64,000 nucleotides of DNA, taken from positions 62,001-126,000 of the forward strand of contig JAJPHC010000035.1 of the NCBI GenBank assembly GCA_021325515.1, read 5' to 3'. Shown piece after piece: positions 17,724 through 24,156 of the stretch (the first letter of the stretch is position 1; every line of letters begins with the position of its first letter). The stretch comes from Acidobacteriota bacterium. GTDB lineage: Bacteria; Acidobacteriota; Thermoanaerobaculia; Gp7-AA8. The position numbers and the translations under genes were made by a program. The notes beneath the pieces were generated by a model, which ran no database searches, was not told where the DNA came from, and saw nothing but the letters and a program-made list of their open reading frames with translations.

Positions 17724-18383
17724 ATGATGATTCAGCGCATGTCACCCGCCTCTCTTCCGACCCGTGCGCGTTGGACCGCTCCGAACGCCGACGCCTCGAT
17801 CGACGCGTATTTTTCCGCGGATGTGGAGACCGATGGCCCGATCCCCGGTCCGTACTCGATGCTCTCGTTCGCCCTCGTTCATGCAGGGACTTTCGACGGC
17901 TTCGAGTACACCCGTCCAGAGCGGTTGGAAGCGACCACCTTCTACAGCGAGCTCAAACCGATCTCCGAGCATTTCGAACCGGAGGCGCTCGCCGTGAATG
18001 GACTCGATCGAAACCGCCTGCTGCGGGAAGGCGCCGATCCCCGGGAAGCGCTGACCAAAGCGGCTGAATGGGTCCGCCACGTCGCCGCCGGCCGGCGGCC
18101 GATCCTCGTCGCCTATCCACTCAGCTTCGACTGGAGCTGGATGTACTGGTACTTCGTCAACTTCTCGAAGTCGGGATCGCCGTTCAACCACTCCGGGTGC
18201 TTCGATTTGAAAACCGCGTACGCAATCAAGGCCGGCGTGCCGATCGCGCGCGCAGGCCGGGACCAGATGAGGCACGACCTGCTTCCCGATCGTCCCCACA
18301 CGCACAACGCGCTCGACGACGCCATCCAGCAGGCGGAACTCTTCGCCAACGTCTTCGAATGGAAGCGGGATGACGGCGGCTGA
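17724..18383 (+). CDS. DEDD-type 3'-5' exonuclease-like protein
   Basis: 'FSADVETDGPIPGPYSMLSFALV' (DxE), 'ILVAYPLSFDWSWMYWYF', 'HTHNALDDAIQQAELFANV' (HxxxxD). Confidence 0.75.
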   Translation: MMIQRMSPASLPTRARWTAPNADASIDAYFSADVETDGPIPGPYSMLSFALVHAGTFDGFEYTRPERLEATTFYSELKPISEHFEPEALAVNGLDRNRLLREGADPREALTKAAEWVRHVAAGRRPILVAYPLSFDWSWMYWYFVNFSKSGSPFNHSGCFDLKTAYAIKAGVPIARAGRDQMRHDLLPDRPHTHNALDDAIQQAELFANVFEWKRDDGG

Positions 18384-19350
18384 AGAGTTTCTGGCCCTTC
18401 GCAAGGCGGAAACAGATGAGCGCTTTCGCAGACTCGAAGAGCGTCTCCAATCCATGGAACCGCTCGCCGGCGACTTCGCAACCGTCTACGCAACCGGATC
18501 CTTCGGCCGCGGCGAAGCATCACGCGATAGCGACCTCGATGTCTTCATTCTCATCGACACCGATGACGATGGCCGGAGGAAGCTCACGAACCTCGACGCA
18601 ATCCAGTTGCAGGCCGCGCTGATCAAATGTGCCGCCGACGAAGGCTTCGAGGCCTTTTCCGACGATGGCAAATATCTCGAGCCTCATTCCATCAAGGACA
18701 TGATCGAAAAGCTCGGCAGCCGCGACGACGACTACGAGAACCTCTTCACCGCCCGCATGCTGCTCCTGCTCGAGAGCCGCCCGCTTCTCGGCGTGAGCAC
18801 CTACGAGCGCGCCATCGACCGCGTGCTGGCCGAGTACTGGCGAGATTTCCCGCAGAACGCCGGCCGCTTCCTTCCGATCTACCTCACCAACGACCTCATT
18901 CGGTACTGGAAAGTTCTCTGCCTCAATTACGAGGAGCGAACAAGGCGCGCAGAAAACCCGAACAAACGGCGTCTGACCAACTACAAGCTGAAGCACAGCC
19001 GGTTACTCACCTGCTACTCGGCGCTCGTGTACTTCTGCCATCTGCTGGAGAGCACGAACACAATCACTCCGGAGCTTGCGCGCCAGATGACGAAGCTCAC
19101 ACCGACCGAGCGGCTCCGTGCACTGCGCACGAATTCATCGGTCGCGAGTCTTGTCGACGACATCCTGGCGCTCTACGTCGAGTTCCTGAAGAGCGTCGAC
19201 GCACCAAAGCAGGAGCTACTGGCACGCTTTGACGATCCGGAGTACCGGGGCGTGCGTCGCGACTCCGGACAGAATTTCGGAGACTTGATGTTCAAGCTCC
19301 TGACGGACATCGGATCACCGACGAAACTCCTTCGCTATCTCGTCGTGTGA
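18370..19350 (+). CDS. Pol-beta-superfamily nucleotidyltransferase domain protein
   Basis: 'VYATGSFGRGEASRDSDLDVFILID' (GS...DxD motif); overlaps the exonuclease gene by 14 nt. Confidence 0.78.
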   Translation: MTAAEEFLALRKAETDERFRRLEERLQSMEPLAGDFATVYATGSFGRGEASRDSDLDVFILIDTDDDGRRKLTNLDAIQLQAALIKCAADEGFEAFSDDGKYLEPHSIKDMIEKLGSRDDDYENLFTARMLLLLESRPLLGVSTYERAIDRVLAEYWRDFPQNAGRFLPIYLTNDLIRYWKVLCLNYEERTRRAENPNKRRLTNYKLKHSRLLTCYSALVYFCHLLESTNTITPELARQMTKLTPTERLRALRTNSSVASLVDDILALYVEFLKSVDAPKQELLARFDDPEYRGVRRDSGQNFGDLMFKLLTDIGSPTKLLRYLVV

Positions 19351-19494
19351 CCCGCACTTCCCTCGCCCCGCCCACGTCCGGATTCCGCACATCTCTCCAA
19401 ATCCGAACGGCGCTCCCAACGCGATCCCCTTGAAAAACTTGTACATACGCGTGGCATGCCGTTCGCCCTTTTCTGCCGGCGGGAGGTCACCACG

Positions 19495-20175
19495 ATGTTC
19501 GAATCTCTTCCGCCCGCAATCGCCGTCCTGAGGCCGTGTGTCGCCTGCCGCGTTCCGTTCGACCTCGCGCACGCGGACTTCTGCGCGTGTCTCGCAACCG
19601 ATCGCACGTTCCGCTGTCCCGGCTGCGGATGCTGCGCGTGCGATCAACCGCTCGGCGCGCGCAACGAGTTCTGGGGGAGCGCGCCGCGCGTGCTCTGGGA
19701 ACGGCGGCGCGAGCAGGCCGTCACTGCCGAGAGGCAGTTGCAGGCGCTCGATCGCAACTCGGTGAAGAGGCCCGTCGCGCTGATCATCGACGACGATCCG
19801 CGCATCCTCATGCAGGCCGCCGCCGCGCTCCGCCGCCTCGGCTTCTCCACCATCGAGCTCGACCGCCCCGGCGCCGCGGCGCAGATCGCGCGCATGGTCG
19901 TCCCCGAGCTCGTGCTCACCGACGCCCTGATGCCGCGCCTCGATGGCCGCGAGCTTTGCCGGCAACTGAAGACGGATCCGGAGACGAGCTCGATCCGAGT
20001 CATCGTGATGTCGTCGCTCTACAAGGGAACCGTCCATCGCAACGAGGCCTTCAAGAAGTTTCTCGTCGACGAATTTCTCGAGAAGCCTGTGCGATTCGCC
20101 GTACTGCGCGATGCGGTTCAGCGGCTCGTGCCGGATGCACTGGCGGCGGGCGAAGAGCGGACGACCGCATCCTGA
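19495..20175 (+). CDS. Response-regulator receiver protein with N-terminal Cys-rich (zinc-ribbon-like) segment
   Basis: 'CVACRVPFDLAHADFCACLATDRTFRCPGCGCCACDQ' then 'ALIIDDDPRILMQAAAALRRLG...LVLTDALMPRLDG...LEKPV'. Confidence 0.78.
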   Translation: MFESLPPAIAVLRPCVACRVPFDLAHADFCACLATDRTFRCPGCGCCACDQPLGARNEFWGSAPRVLWERRREQAVTAERQLQALDRNSVKRPVALIIDDDPRILMQAAAALRRLGFSTIELDRPGAAAQIARMVVPELVLTDALMPRLDGRELCRQLKTDPETSSIRVIVMSSLYKGTVHRNEAFKKFLVDEFLEKPVRFAVLRDAVQRLVPDALAAGEERTTAS

Positions 20176-21353
20176 TCATCCGCTGCGATCGACGGCAGCC
20201 GGATCGTGAACGTCGATCCCGCGCCCGGCTCGCTCGCGACCTCGATGCGCCCCGCATGCGCGTCGATGATCTTCCGCACGATGGCGAGGCCGAGGCCGGT
20301 GTTCGGTTCGCCGGAGGTGGACTTCGAGCTCAGTTTCTCGAACGGGCGAAAGAGACGCGACTGCTCGTCCGGCGCGATCCCGACGCCGCGATCGCGCACC
20401 TCCACCACGCACTCCCGCGCCTCTCCCCTCACGACCACATCGACTGGTTCACCGGGATACGAAAACTTCAGCGCATTCGAGACGAGGTTGTTGAGGAGCT
20501 GATCGATCTTCCCCGCATCGGCGCGCACGATCGCCGCCTCGGGTGATTTCTCGAGCCGGAGCTCGATCGACTTTCGCGCGGCCTGATGGCGCAGCATCGC
20601 GACCGAGCGCGAGGCCGCGTCGTTGAGATCGACCGGCGCGAGGTCGAGGCGGAACGTTCCCGCCTCGATCGCCGAGACGTCGAGAATCTCGTTGACGAGC
20701 GACGTCATTCCGCGCGCCATCAGCGCGATCTCGCTCGCCAGCGACATCGTCTCCGCATCGGGCTGCGCCAGATCGAGAATGTTCTCCGCGAAGACGAGGA
20801 TGCAGCCGATCGGATTGCGCAGATCGTGCGCGGCGATGCCGATGAAGCGGTTCTTCTCTTCGTTGAGCCGCATCAGCTCGAGGGCCTGCTGTTCCAGGCG
20901 GATGTTCGCGCGCTCGAGCTCGCGCTTCTGAATCGCCAGCTCGCGATGAAGCGTGCTGAGCTCATTGTTGACCTGCGACAGCTCCGCGTAGAGCCGGTGC
21001 GTCTCCTGCGCGTCGCTCGTCGCCAGCGTCTCGAACCAGCGGCGCAGCAAGCGCGCGCGCGGATCGTCCATCGCCGCGAGCCATTCCACCGCATCGGCAT
21101 CGCGCTCCGCTGCGATCACGAGCGCCCGCTCCTCGCGCGCGCACGCCGCGAACCGGAGTGCGGTGCCCTGCACCTCGATGCTCCTGCCGGCGGCGAAACC
21201 GAGGCTGGAGAGCTCGGCGAGAAACGCAGCGGCGGCGGGCGCTGCCGGCGCTTCGAAGAGATCGAGCAGATGCGATCCGCACGCGATCGCTTCGCCGCGC
21301 CAGACGTGCGCGATGCGCAGTCCCGCATCGCACTCGAACGCGAGCAGCGTCAT
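20118..21353 (-). CDS. Sensor histidine kinase (HisKA + HATPase_c)
   Basis: 411 aa from MTLLAFECDAGLR; 'FIGIAAHDLRNPIGCILVFAENIL', 'LLNNLVSNALKFSYPGEPVDV', 'GLGLAIVRKIIDAHAGRIEV'. The start overlaps the upstream stop (ATGA). Confidence 0.85.
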   Translation of the reverse strand: MTLLAFECDAGLRIAHVWRGEAIACGSHLLDLFEAPAAPAAAAFLAELSSLGFAAGRSIEVQGTALRFAACAREERALVIAAERDADAVEWLAAMDDPRARLLRRWFETLATSDAQETHRLYAELSQVNNELSTLHRELAIQKRELERANIRLEQQALELMRLNEEKNRFIGIAAHDLRNPIGCILVFAENILDLAQPDAETMSLASEIALMARGMTSLVNEILDVSAIEAGTFRLDLAPVDLNDAASRSVAMLRHQAARKSIELRLEKSPEAAIVRADAGKIDQLLNNLVSNALKFSYPGEPVDVVVRGEARECVVEVRDRGVGIAPDEQSRLFRPFEKLSSKSTSGEPNTGLGLAIVRKIIDAHAGRIEVASEPGAGSTFTIRLPSIAADDQDAVVRSSPAASASGTSR

Positions 21354-22402
21354 GCGACGAGCCTTCCCGCGGCTTCGACTGCATCGCGCGCGTTGCCGGC
21401 GGAGGCATCGGCGCCGACGCGCTTCCAGAGCGACGGCTCGATGCGGAACGGCGCGCCTCCGACGAGGATCGGCACGCCGCGCATCTGCGGATGATCGCGA
21501 ATCGCGCCGATGACGCGCTCGGTCTCCGCGACGTGCGGCGTCAGCGTCGTCGATAGTGCGATGACGTTCGCGCGCGTGCGCACGGCGGCATCGACGATCG
21601 ACGATGCGGGAACGTTCGCGCCGAGATAATGCGTGGCCCATCCCGACAGCTCGAGCAGATCGCTCACGATGCGCAGGCCGATCTCGTGCAGCTCGTCGCC
21701 GACGCAGGCGGCAACGATGCGCCGCTCGCCCGCGGGCGACTCCATGACGCGAGCGAACAACTGCGACATCACGAGCTGCGTCGCGGCGGAGCTGTAGTGT
21801 TCCTGCGCGACGCTGATCCGGTTGGCCTGCCACATCCGGCCGACCTCGATCTGCGCGCGCTCGAGCACATCGAGATAGATCGACGGCAGCGTCATCCCGT
21901 CGTCGAGCGCGGAGAAGACGATGCTCATCGCGCTTCTGCGATCGCCGCCGAGGACGGCGCGCAGATAGCGCGCGGTAACGCTTTCGCGCTCGCGGCCATC
22001 CAGCAGGAGCTCGAGGGAATCGGGGAGCGACGCGAATCGCGCGATCGCGCCGCCGGTCACGTTGCGAATCTCATCCGCGATCTCCGGCGGCGCATCTTCG
22101 GTGGCGCACTCGCTGATGAGATCGAGATTGAGGCGGAGATCTTCGGCCGGCACGCCGCGGCTGGCGAGCATGATCTTCGCCCAGCCGATGTAATCGACGA
22201 AGAGTTGCGGCGCGCCGTGGCGCACGGCCTGCGCGAGGAAGCGCAGATGGAAGGCCGCATCGGCGTTGCAGTGCGCGCGGCCGGCGGGGCCATAGCGCTC
22301 GGCGAGACGCACGTTGCGCTGGAACTGGCGCTCGGTGATGGCAGCGGCGAGTTGCGGAATGCGATCCGAAAGGAAAGCAGCGGCGTCGCGGTCGCTCGAC
22401 AT
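21350..22402 (-). CDS. Cobalamin (B12)-binding sensor-like protein with CarH-type Wx9EH motif
   Basis: 'VGRMWQANRISVAQEHYSSAATQLVMSQLF' (W-x9-EH), 'ELHEIGLRIVSDLLELSGWATHYLGANVP' ([DE]xHxxG), 'ALSTTLTPH', 'ILVGGAPF'. Confidence 0.82.
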   Translation of the reverse strand: MSSDRDAAAFLSDRIPQLAAAITERQFQRNVRLAERYGPAGRAHCNADAAFHLRFLAQAVRHGAPQLFVDYIGWAKIMLASRGVPAEDLRLNLDLISECATEDAPPEIADEIRNVTGGAIARFASLPDSLELLLDGRERESVTARYLRAVLGGDRRSAMSIVFSALDDGMTLPSIYLDVLERAQIEVGRMWQANRISVAQEHYSSAATQLVMSQLFARVMESPAGERRIVAACVGDELHEIGLRIVSDLLELSGWATHYLGANVPASSIVDAAVRTRANVIALSTTLTPHVAETERVIGAIRDHPQMRGVPILVGGAPFRIEPSLWKRVGADASAGNARDAVEAAGRLVA

Positions 22403-22405
22403 GTT

Positions 22406-23005
22406 CTACCTCGCAATCGATTTGAAGAGACGGACTTTCGTGGCGGTGGGATCGAGGCGGAGGCCGCGCGGGATGCCGCTGTGCGCCTCGCGATAGAGGT
22501 GGCTGTGGTGCCAGCTCTCGAATGCCTGCGCGTCCGACCACGCGGTCAGCAGCCAGAACTCGTTCGGATCCTCGCTGGGAGAGATCACATGAAACTCGCG
22601 GAAGCCGGCTTCGGAATCGACGTGGTGCGGCCGCTCGCGAAACGCCTGCGCGACGGAAGCGGACATCCCATTCGCAACGCGAAACGTGCTGATGACGACG
22701 CAGCCATCCGCGGGCGGCGCGTCTGCCGTTGCTGCGAATCGCGCGCAGAAATCGCTTTCATCCGCGGCATCGTCGAGAAACACCGCCGCGACGCCGTGTG
22801 CGTTCACGCGGCTCGCGGCGCGATCGCGCGCGGCCGCGGAGGAACAGGCGACGGCGATGCAGTCGTAGTGCGTTGGAGCGAGGTCCGCATCCTCGGCGAG
22901 CGTGACGACGAGCCCGCGCTGCAGCGCCGCGGACGCGATGCGCAGGAGCCGCTCGCGGTCATCGCCGAGGAGGAGGAGCGTGGAGCGAGGAGGCAGCGCA
23001 TTCAT
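22406..23005 (-). CDS. Two-domain protein: degenerate receiver-like N-terminus + antibiotic-biosynthesis-monooxygenase/IsdG-like (ABM) C-terminus
   Basis: N: 'STLLLLGDDRERLLRIASAALQRGLVVTLAEDADL'; C: 'VVISTFRVANGMSASVAQAFRERPHHVDSEAGFREFHVI...EFWLLTAWSDAQAFESWHHS'. Confidence 0.65.
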   Translation of the reverse strand: MNALPPRSTLLLLGDDRERLLRIASAALQRGLVVTLAEDADLAPTHYDCIAVACSSAAARDRAASRVNAHGVAAVFLDDAADESDFCARFAATADAPPADGCVVISTFRVANGMSASVAQAFRERPHHVDSEAGFREFHVISPSEDPNEFWLLTAWSDAQAFESWHHSHLYREAHSGIPRGLRLDPTATKVRLFKSIAR

Positions 23006-23364
23006 GATGGCTCCAGAGGCGGCAGGCCGGTGATGCGGCGGATCTCCGGCACGAGCTCGCGCAAGTCGGTCTTGCAGAGGACGGGGACTCGCGTGGCGAG
23101 CGCATGCCCGACGAGATTGAAGCCGGTCACGAGGATGGTCTTGCGCGCGAGATCCTCGCGCGACTCGACGATCTGCAGCAGCGACGCCCCCTCGGGCCCC
23201 TCGACATGGAGGTCGAGGAGGAGGACATCGAACTCGCCGCGCGTGACGAGCGATTCAGCATCCGAGAGATTGTTCGCAGTGGTCGCGTCGAGCCCGAGCT
23301 TCTTCGCGATGGAGGCAAGAATCGAGCTCCAGTGTGGCTCGTCCTCGACAATGAGCGCCAGCAT
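23002..23364 (-). CDS. Single-domain response regulator
   Basis: 120 aa MLALIVEDEPHWSSILASIAKKLG...FDVLLLDLHVEGPEG...; overlaps the next gene by 4 nt. Confidence 0.82.
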   Translation of the reverse strand: MLALIVEDEPHWSSILASIAKKLGLDATTANNLSDAESLVTRGEFDVLLLDLHVEGPEGASLLQIVESREDLARKTILVTGFNLVGHALATRVPVLCKTDLRELVPEIRRITGLPPLEPS

Positions 23365-23628
23365 GATCGCTCCTCGCTTGAGAGCAGATCACTCGCAGGC
23401 CGCGAAGACGATCGTCGCTGTCGTGAGGGAGATGCCCGCAGGAGGTAGTGTACTACTGAGCTCGCCAGGGCATGGGTCTTCACACGCGCAAATTGAAGAC
23501 GACAATCGTTGGTCTGATTTCCCGAAGGCGTTACGCTAACCATTGACGGCGATGCCTATGCGAAGCGACCTATGGCCGGCAGCAAGACACGAAGCTCAGT
23601 TCAAGAAACGTAATGAGGTGTGCGTCGA

Positions 23629-24156
23629 GTGAGCCTCCGCGATGTGATCGTCACGGTCAATCAGATGGAGGCGGACGGCGTCATCGATCGCTATGCGATC
23701 GGCGGAGCGGTGGGGGCAACGTTCTATTTGGAACCGATTGCAACAGTCGATGCCGATATTTTCGTCGCGTTCAAGTCCGAGCCCGGCAAACTGCTCATTA
23801 CGTTGGAGCCTATACTCGATTACCTGCGCTCGAGAGGCTGCTTCATGAAGGATGAGTACGTCATGATCGGCGATTGGCCTGTGCAGTTCCTGGCGCCGAC
23901 CAGTCGGCTCGTCGAGGAAGCTTTGGACACAGCGGTCGAAATTGATGTCGAGGGCGAGAGTGCGAGAGTGTTCCGCGCCGAGCACCTTGCCGCAATCGCT
24001 CTGCAAACAGGTCGCGCGAAGGACAAAGCGCGCCTCTTGCAGTTCCTCGAGCAAGGAGAGCTCGACAGAAACCGCTTTCACGAAATCCTGGAGCATCACA
24101 GCCTCGTTGATGCATGGAACAGGTTTGAACGACAATTCTTGAAGAACGAGCAATGA
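23629..24156 (+). CDS. Nucleotidyltransferase-fold (AbiEii/MNT-like) protein
   Basis: GTG start; 'MSLRDVIVTVNQMEADGVIDRYAIGGAVGATFYLEPIATVDADIFV...' resembles the 'GG...DxDI' pattern of AbiEii-like NTases. Confidence 0.65.
   Translation: MSLRDVIVTVNQMEADGVIDRYAIGGAVGATFYLEPIATVDADIFVAFKSEPGKLLITLEPILDYLRSRGCFMKDEYVMIGDWPVQFLAPTSRLVEEALDTAVEIDVEGESARVFRAEHLAAIALQTGRAKDKARLLQFLEQGELDRNRFHEILEHHSLVDAWNRFERQFLKNEQ

Follow-up and report, generated by a model that had tools for sequence, protein, structure and literature searches.

How can a predicted B12-dependent light sensor without a DNA-binding domain pass on its signal, and what is the role of an IsdG-like protein encoded in the same operon? 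These questions are raised by four coupled genes on the minus strand of a 64,000-nucleotide stretch of DNA (the window; contig JAJPHC010000035.1, positions 62,001 to 126,000) from a bacterium of the phylum Acidobacteriota. The original prediction had described a receiver, an ABM/IsdG-like protein, a CarH-like B12 sensor and a histidine kinase; the four open reading frames (ORFs), their coordinates and their coupling all proved exact, the junctions in gene order being an overlap of 4 nucleotides, a gap of 3 and an overlap of 4. Judged by sequence and predicted structure, the B12 protein is a stand-alone photocobilin that carries a photoglobin at its N terminus and is nearer to SasPcob than to CarH, and the operon as a whole, including a dedicated ABM protein, probably constitutes a two-chromophore light-sensing two-component system. 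The features of the operon are as follows.

23002–23364, minus strand: receiver gene, 120 residues, first gene of the operon (Pfam Response_reg, 2.5e-9)
22406–23005, minus strand: ABM protein gene, 199 residues (Pfam ABM, 3.1e-15)
22688–22690, minus strand: Ser106 codon of the ABM protein, aligned with the catalytic Asn7 of IsdG/MhuD; Ser is invariant in operon-linked homologues
21350–22402, minus strand: photocobilin-type B12 protein gene, 350 residues, with the photoglobin N-terminal and the cobalamin domain C-terminal
22013–22402, minus strand: photoglobin (phycobiliprotein-like, predicted to bind bilin), residues 1–130, with C45xxD48 and W74; assigned from profile matches
21356–21985, minus strand: cobalamin-binding domain, with a four-helix bundle (residues 140–220) and a Rossmann fold (residues 226–349); assigned from Pfam and Foldseek
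21797–21832, minus strand: W191-x9-E201-H202 motif, which in CarH and photocobilin covers the upper, adenosyl ligand; invariant in 84 of 84 relatives
21686–21694, minus strand: E237-L-H239, where H239 is the lower axial cobalt ligand, invariant in 84 of 84 relatives
20118–21353, minus strand: histidine kinase gene, ATG at 21353, 411 residues (Pfam HisKA, 4e-9; HATPase_c, 3e-28)

A photocobilin with an N-terminal photoglobin

The cobalamin-binding part of the protein is recognised by Pfam (B12-binding_2, 2e-15; B12-binding, 8e-25), and a search of the PDB returned the photocobilins SasPcob (8j2w/8j2x; 2.5e-29) and AbPcob (2e-22) far ahead of CarH (4e-6). A second, weak alignment in the SasPcob search pairs residues 55–99 of the window protein with residues 272–316 of SasPcob, which lie within the bilin-binding globin. 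Furthermore, a profile of 40 N-terminal-domain sequences picks up the SasPcob globin (1.1e-8) and, besides allophycocyanin (3e-7), numerous further phycobiliproteins; taken singly, 31 of these 40 sequences hit Pfam Phycobilisome, the window member giving no match. The AlphaFold2 (AF2) model, with a predicted local distance difference test score (pLDDT) of 95, shows six helices followed by a four-helix bundle and a Rossmann fold, and Foldseek superimposed it on SasPcob with a root-mean-square deviation of 1.8 Å over 205 columns, the cobalamin domain also matching 8jbs, 8j2w and CarH. Since an N-terminal photoglobin is followed by a cobalamin domain that matches SasPcob, we assign the protein to the photocobilins. 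The B12 domain has already been described at either end of photocobilins (PMC10979010, Zhang et al.), and the reversed domain order is therefore not new.

The Wx9EH and [DE]xHxxG motifs of the original prediction are both present, the latter as E237-L-H239-x2-G242, and the MerR domain is indeed missing, neither it nor any other DNA-binding domain being found in the protein by Pfam. The label of a CarH-like B12 sensor fits less well: all residues of the light signature but one are kept, but photocobilins are the closer relatives, and residues 1–135, the photoglobin, had been left undescribed. A CarH that has shed its DNA-binding domain was rejected, as CarH aligns to the cobalamin domain only and the N-terminal domain is a globin; the NCBIfam CarH model reaches 42 bits against a cut-off of 400, over residues 145–291 only. 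Like CarH and LitR, the window protein has the cobalamin domain fold and the W-x9-EH and E-x-H motifs; unlike them, it has an additional photoglobin and a predicted output via a kinase in place of the MerR domain. A same-class genome (G023; locus L012, 1501–2103) encodes a CarH-type cobalamin domain with a C-terminal XRE-like helix-turn-helix, not an N-terminal MerR domain.

Residue conservation was counted over 84 window-like relatives, in all of which G188 and G261 are invariant, as are W191, E201, H202 and H239. The published light signature (GxxW, EH, GxxH, GxxxP), which forecast the light response correctly in the proteins assayed (PMC11796333), reads GRMW, EH, H239 and GANVP in the window, with D236 at the Gly position of GxxH. 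In the photoglobin, D48 aligns with Asp270 and W74 with Trp296 of SasPcob, which are the biliverdin residues of that protein, Asp270 being the key one (PMC10979010); the former is Asp in 82 of the 84 relatives and the latter Trp in all 84. C45 aligns with the bilin-attaching cysteine of phycobiliproteins and is Cys in only 22 of the 84. These alignments make it fairly likely that the photoglobin binds a bilin.

Compared with SasPcob and AbDPcob (PDB codes 8J2W, 8J2X and 8J2Y; PMC10979010), the window protein has the same combination of photoglobin and CarH-type cobalamin domain, all main adenosylcobalamin (AdoCbl) contact residues, the Asp and Trp known from the SasPcob biliverdin pocket, and the same stand-alone form with no output domain. 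It differs in the N-terminal position of the globin, in the CxxD cysteine, and in having a kinase and a Ser-type ABM protein as operon partners rather than a fused cyclase. The photoglobin family likewise comprises globin-B12 fusion proteins with a CxQD-type motif, to which the window motif CNAD is related, according to PMC11796333 and PMC10151467.

The probable partner kinase and the receiver

A profile scan of 84,980 species, based on a four-row alignment, returned 292 relatives of the B12 protein, the best 80 of which were analysed, with 79 readable loci. These 80 span Acidobacteriota, Pseudomonadota, Bacteroidota, Verrucomicrobiota, Planctomycetota, Gemmatimonadota, Bacillota, Spirochaetota, Chloroflexota, Actinomycetota, Myxococcota, Ignavibacteriota and two archaeal groups. 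With 38–45% identity over the full length and a gene order that is kept across phyla, the relationships among the photocobilins are well beyond chance. At least 72 of the 79 loci have a histidine kinase gene immediately downstream of the photocobilin gene, and output through the co-encoded kinase is therefore well supported by synteny; that the photoreceptor acts through this kinase is quite probable on these genomic grounds. Photoglobins have reportedly been associated with two-component signalling domains by Schneider et al. in 2022.

The window kinase is composed of a conserved N-terminal region of about 110 residues, a coiled coil, HisKA (H176) and HATPase_c, and retains the H, N and G boxes of two-component histidine kinases. 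Its N-terminal region is PAS-like by appearance only, and Pfam recognised no PAS domain there in the window kinase or in five relatives. Four Bacteroidota loci encode only the N-terminal region and the coiled coil. Stand-alone photocobilin domains have been reported to control a separate enzyme in vitro through protein contact (PMC10979010, 2024). The receiver of the window retains the acidic pair E7/D8, the phospho-acceptor D51, T80 and K98. Stand-alone receiver genes directly upstream of the photocobilin, as in the window, were also seen in Paenibacillus (L106, 5404–5859) and Melioribacteraceae (L150, 547–972).

No full-length photocobilin relative was found among 17 genomes of the window genome's own family, whereas such relatives do occur elsewhere in Acidobacteriota. 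Vertical inheritance within the family was accordingly rejected, and lateral transfer of the photocobilin cassette appears likely, because the relatives sit in other classes and phyla.

The surroundings of the operon contain further genes. A convergent plus-strand ORF (19456–20175), whose 3' end overlaps that of the kinase gene by 58 nucleotides, encodes a Cys-rich N-terminal region and a C-terminal receiver (Pfam Response_reg, 2e-15). Beyond it, a plus-strand ORF (18370–19350) encodes a 326-residue protein with a nucleotidyltransferase domain (NTP_transf_2, 1.9e-7). Just upstream of the operon, on the opposite strand, lies a 178-residue ORF (23620–24156, plus strand) that by eye is of the nucleotidyltransferase type (AbiEii-like), with weak unrelated matches in Pfam.

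The ABM protein and its link to photocobilins

The ABM protein consists of a receiver-like N-terminal region, assigned with low confidence (about residues 1–95; pLDDT about 60 in the AF2 model), and an IsdG/HmoB-like ABM domain (residues 101–199; pLDDT above 90 over most of it). Its solved relatives in the PDB are HmoB, MhuD, IsdI and Thermus TT1380, and Foldseek matched the model to IsdI, IsdG and MhuD, in agreement with an ABM fold; the NCBIfam HmuQ and IsdG models stay below cut-off. Like the IsdG, MhuD, HmoB and HmuQ proteins, it keeps by alignment the haem-ruffling Trp (Trp165), the proximal His of IsdG (His175) and an Arg at the position of MhuD Arg26 (Arg125). It differs from them in having Ser106 in place of the Asn of the Asn/Trp/His triad (alignment numbering), in the motif WHxS...H..IPxGLKL, and in its genetic tie to photocobilins. 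Characterised IsdG enzymes require the catalytic Asn (PMC5557675, PMC6018153), and a plain IsdG enzyme was rejected on account of this altered triad; a protein with the Ser-type triad could still work like an IsdG oxygenase. At one locus (L069, 6310–7605, minus strand), a Ser-type ABM domain and a GGDEF diguanylate cyclase form a fusion protein, encoded immediately upstream of the photocobilin.

A close ABM homologue lies directly beside the photocobilin in 20 of the 80 loci, in a single case on the opposite strand; a more distant homologue was seen at five Paenibacillus loci. As a test that was not selected by photocobilin presence, 396 genomes each of Acidobacteriota and Bacteroidota were searched with an ABM profile built from the five Acidobacteriota copies, the Bacteroidota survey being an independent test, although its centre genome (G421) was a chosen carrier. 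Each survey yielded five strong copies, and all ten lie directly beside a photocobilin; in Acidobacteriota the five adjacent copies score 162–182 bits and everything else at most 47. Eighteen carrier genomes have a single strong ABM copy each, the photocobilin-adjacent one; in Pontibacter a copy is present on another contig. Sequence distances of ABM proteins and photocobilins are correlated (mirror-tree r=0.77, 0 of 2000 permutations), and parsimony places nine changes of ABM presence on the photocobilin tree, at least four of them forced by well-supported branches, which argues that the link was kept or rebuilt repeatedly as the cassette moved between phyla. A literature search for a link between ABM, B12 and kinase found nothing, Schneider et al. 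2022 being outside its scope, and the novelty of the link is provisional.

The window genome (99.84% complete) encodes one PF03992 (ABM) protein in all and a PduO-type adenosyltransferase, and neither a canonical haem oxygenase (PF01126) nor a PHY phytochrome was found in it. Canonical haem oxygenase occurs in 2 of 20 ABM carriers versus 9 of 29 other carriers, 38 of the 49 being without it. At three loci (L117, L126, L145) a haem oxygenase gene is divergent beside the photocobilin, and a fourth (L080, 6074–7366, minus strand) has a 430-residue ORF that joins a canonical haem oxygenase to a photoglobin, with genes for a separate B12 protein and a kinase after it: a split photocobilin that has a bilin enzyme of its own. 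None of these four has an ABM gene, and ABM and haem oxygenase never occur at one locus. Photocobilin-kinase pairs are also found in Lokiarchaeota, Methanohalophilus and Heliobacteria (L107, L132, L157, L137, L124, L135, L136); no ABM gene is present at these loci, and no canonical haem oxygenase was found in those of the genomes that were searched.

The expectation that the four genes recur together among homologues holds for the kinase and, in part of the loci, for the ABM gene, and fails for the receiver; signalling of the B12 photoreceptor module through the co-encoded kinase stands as a well-supported prediction. The suggested haem or redox link of the ABM protein is borne out as a tie to the photocobilin system, and is likely to consist in a bilin chromophore rather than in redox chemistry.

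Bacteriophytochrome BphP-BphO operons likewise place a chromophore-making enzyme alongside a photoreceptor kinase system, and differ from the window operon in their GAF/PHY sensor fused to the kinase and their canonical haem oxygenase. The operon can also be compared with the BBAG-2 clusters, in which a bilin-binding globin is genetically linked to a B12 protein and bilin-making enzymes; there, the globin and the B12 protein are separate, haem oxygenase and a bilin reductase (pre-PcyA) stand in place of ABM, and the available portion of the source mentions no kinase (PMC10151467).

A proposed scheme for light signalling and its alternatives

From the observed gene order, domain identities, conservation and genome-wide linkage we infer the following scheme for ligand binding, photochemistry, kinase control and ABM chemistry. 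The C-terminal domain of the photocobilin would bind AdoCbl and its N-terminal photoglobin a linear tetrapyrrole, as the fold and the conserved ligand residues suggest. Green light, or red light acting via the bilin, would break the Co–C bond and change the helical bundle and the dimer interface, as in SasPcob. Having no output domain, the photocobilin would act through protein contact with the kinase, whose N-terminal region and coiled coil would take up the change; autophosphorylation of the kinase would be altered, as would phosphotransfer to a receiver, for which the product of the first gene is a plausible candidate. The Ser-type ABM protein would be dedicated to the photocobilin and would most likely supply or hand over the bilin, since the genome has no other recognisable haem-opening enzyme; that it makes or delivers bilin is a tentative assignment from sequence comparison. 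More doubtful is the broader idea that the Ser-type branch of the IsdG fold, hitherto unrecognised, might be a dedicated chromophore-making or chromophore-loading enzyme for photocobilin-kinase sensors, standing in for haem oxygenase in at least Acidobacteriota, Bacteroidota, Pseudomonadota, Verrucomicrobiota, Planctomycetota and Gemmatimonadota, with a bilin that is possibly other than biliverdin.

Several observations weigh against this scheme. D236 replaces the Gly of the published GxxH, a position that is Gly in 53 of 95 relatives and other than Gly in 42. The receiver is near only few of the relatives' loci and was rejected as a member of the conserved unit. All linked ABM homologues seen have Ser at the position of the catalytic Asn, and haem-oxygenase activity can therefore not be assumed; furthermore, the fusions to a GGDEF protein (L069) and to a coiled coil (L070) resemble signalling parts. 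In AbPcob, AdoCbl light-activates the enzyme domain although biliverdin is bound only weakly (PMC10979010). Both ABM and haem oxygenase are missing from many photocobilin-kinase loci, those of strict anaerobes (Heliobacteria, Methanohalophilus, Lokiarchaeota) among them, so that bilin may be dispensable in some of these systems.

The same fusions, together with the receiver-like region joined to the ABM domain in the window and an invariant exchange of Asn for Ser that leaves the Trp and proximal His in place, would suit a non-enzymatic sensor or adaptor subunit that binds haem or bilin and adds a haem, oxygen or redox input to the kinase. We consider this possible, if somewhat doubtful: some relatives have a haem oxygenase where ABM would be, one case being the photoglobin fusion, which points to chromophore supply, and none of the ABM loci belongs to the strictly anaerobic lineages sampled, as expected of an oxygen-using enzyme, although this pattern is confounded by phylogeny. 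The behaviour of AbPcob and the 38 carriers without canonical haem oxygenase, several of them anaerobes, would also be compatible with a receptor that uses AdoCbl only and whose photoglobin has lost bilin binding and serves as a structural or protein-contact domain. This is unlikely in view of D48 and W74, which are among the most conserved residues of the protein, and the weak binding in AbPcob accompanies the loss of the very Asp that the window protein retains.

Sensing of cobalamin form, redox state or B12 availability in place of light would be in line with the other roles that B12 domains can have, with haem-using SCHIC relatives (Pfam AppA_SCHIC gives a weak match, below cut-off), and with carriers from dim or dark habitats such as Lokiarchaeota and Treponema. 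We regard it as quite improbable, given the invariant adenosyl cap and lower His, the correct forecasts made with the light signature (PMC11796333), and the adenosyltransferase encoded in the genome. A corrinoid protein of a methyltransferase system (MtgC/MtbC-like), as the top NCBIfam scores might imply, was rejected as extremely improbable: those scores are far under the curated cut-offs (64 versus 350 bits), a methyltransferase did not turn up among the neighbouring genes that were examined, the protein carries W-x9-EH, and its matches to photocobilins in the PDB are much better.

The receptor of this operon belongs to the known photocobilin/photoglobin kind, here in a variant setting, and the additions made here are the bilin domain and a near-exclusive Ser-type ABM partner. 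Photocobilins were defined in 2024, and the literature covered establishes no natural partner or bilin source for the stand-alone forms, for which the cross-phylum partner kinase offers a directly testable output. The photocobilin-kinase pairs of strict anaerobes without either enzyme raise the question of which ligand the photoglobin has there. The ABM protein is a candidate for a dedicated bilin enzyme or chaperone where the genome encodes no haem oxygenase. If it opens haem, photoreceptor, kinase and chromophore enzyme would together form a compact green/red optogenetic tool, and the ABM protein would be an IsdG-fold enzyme that serves photoreception, not iron acquisition.

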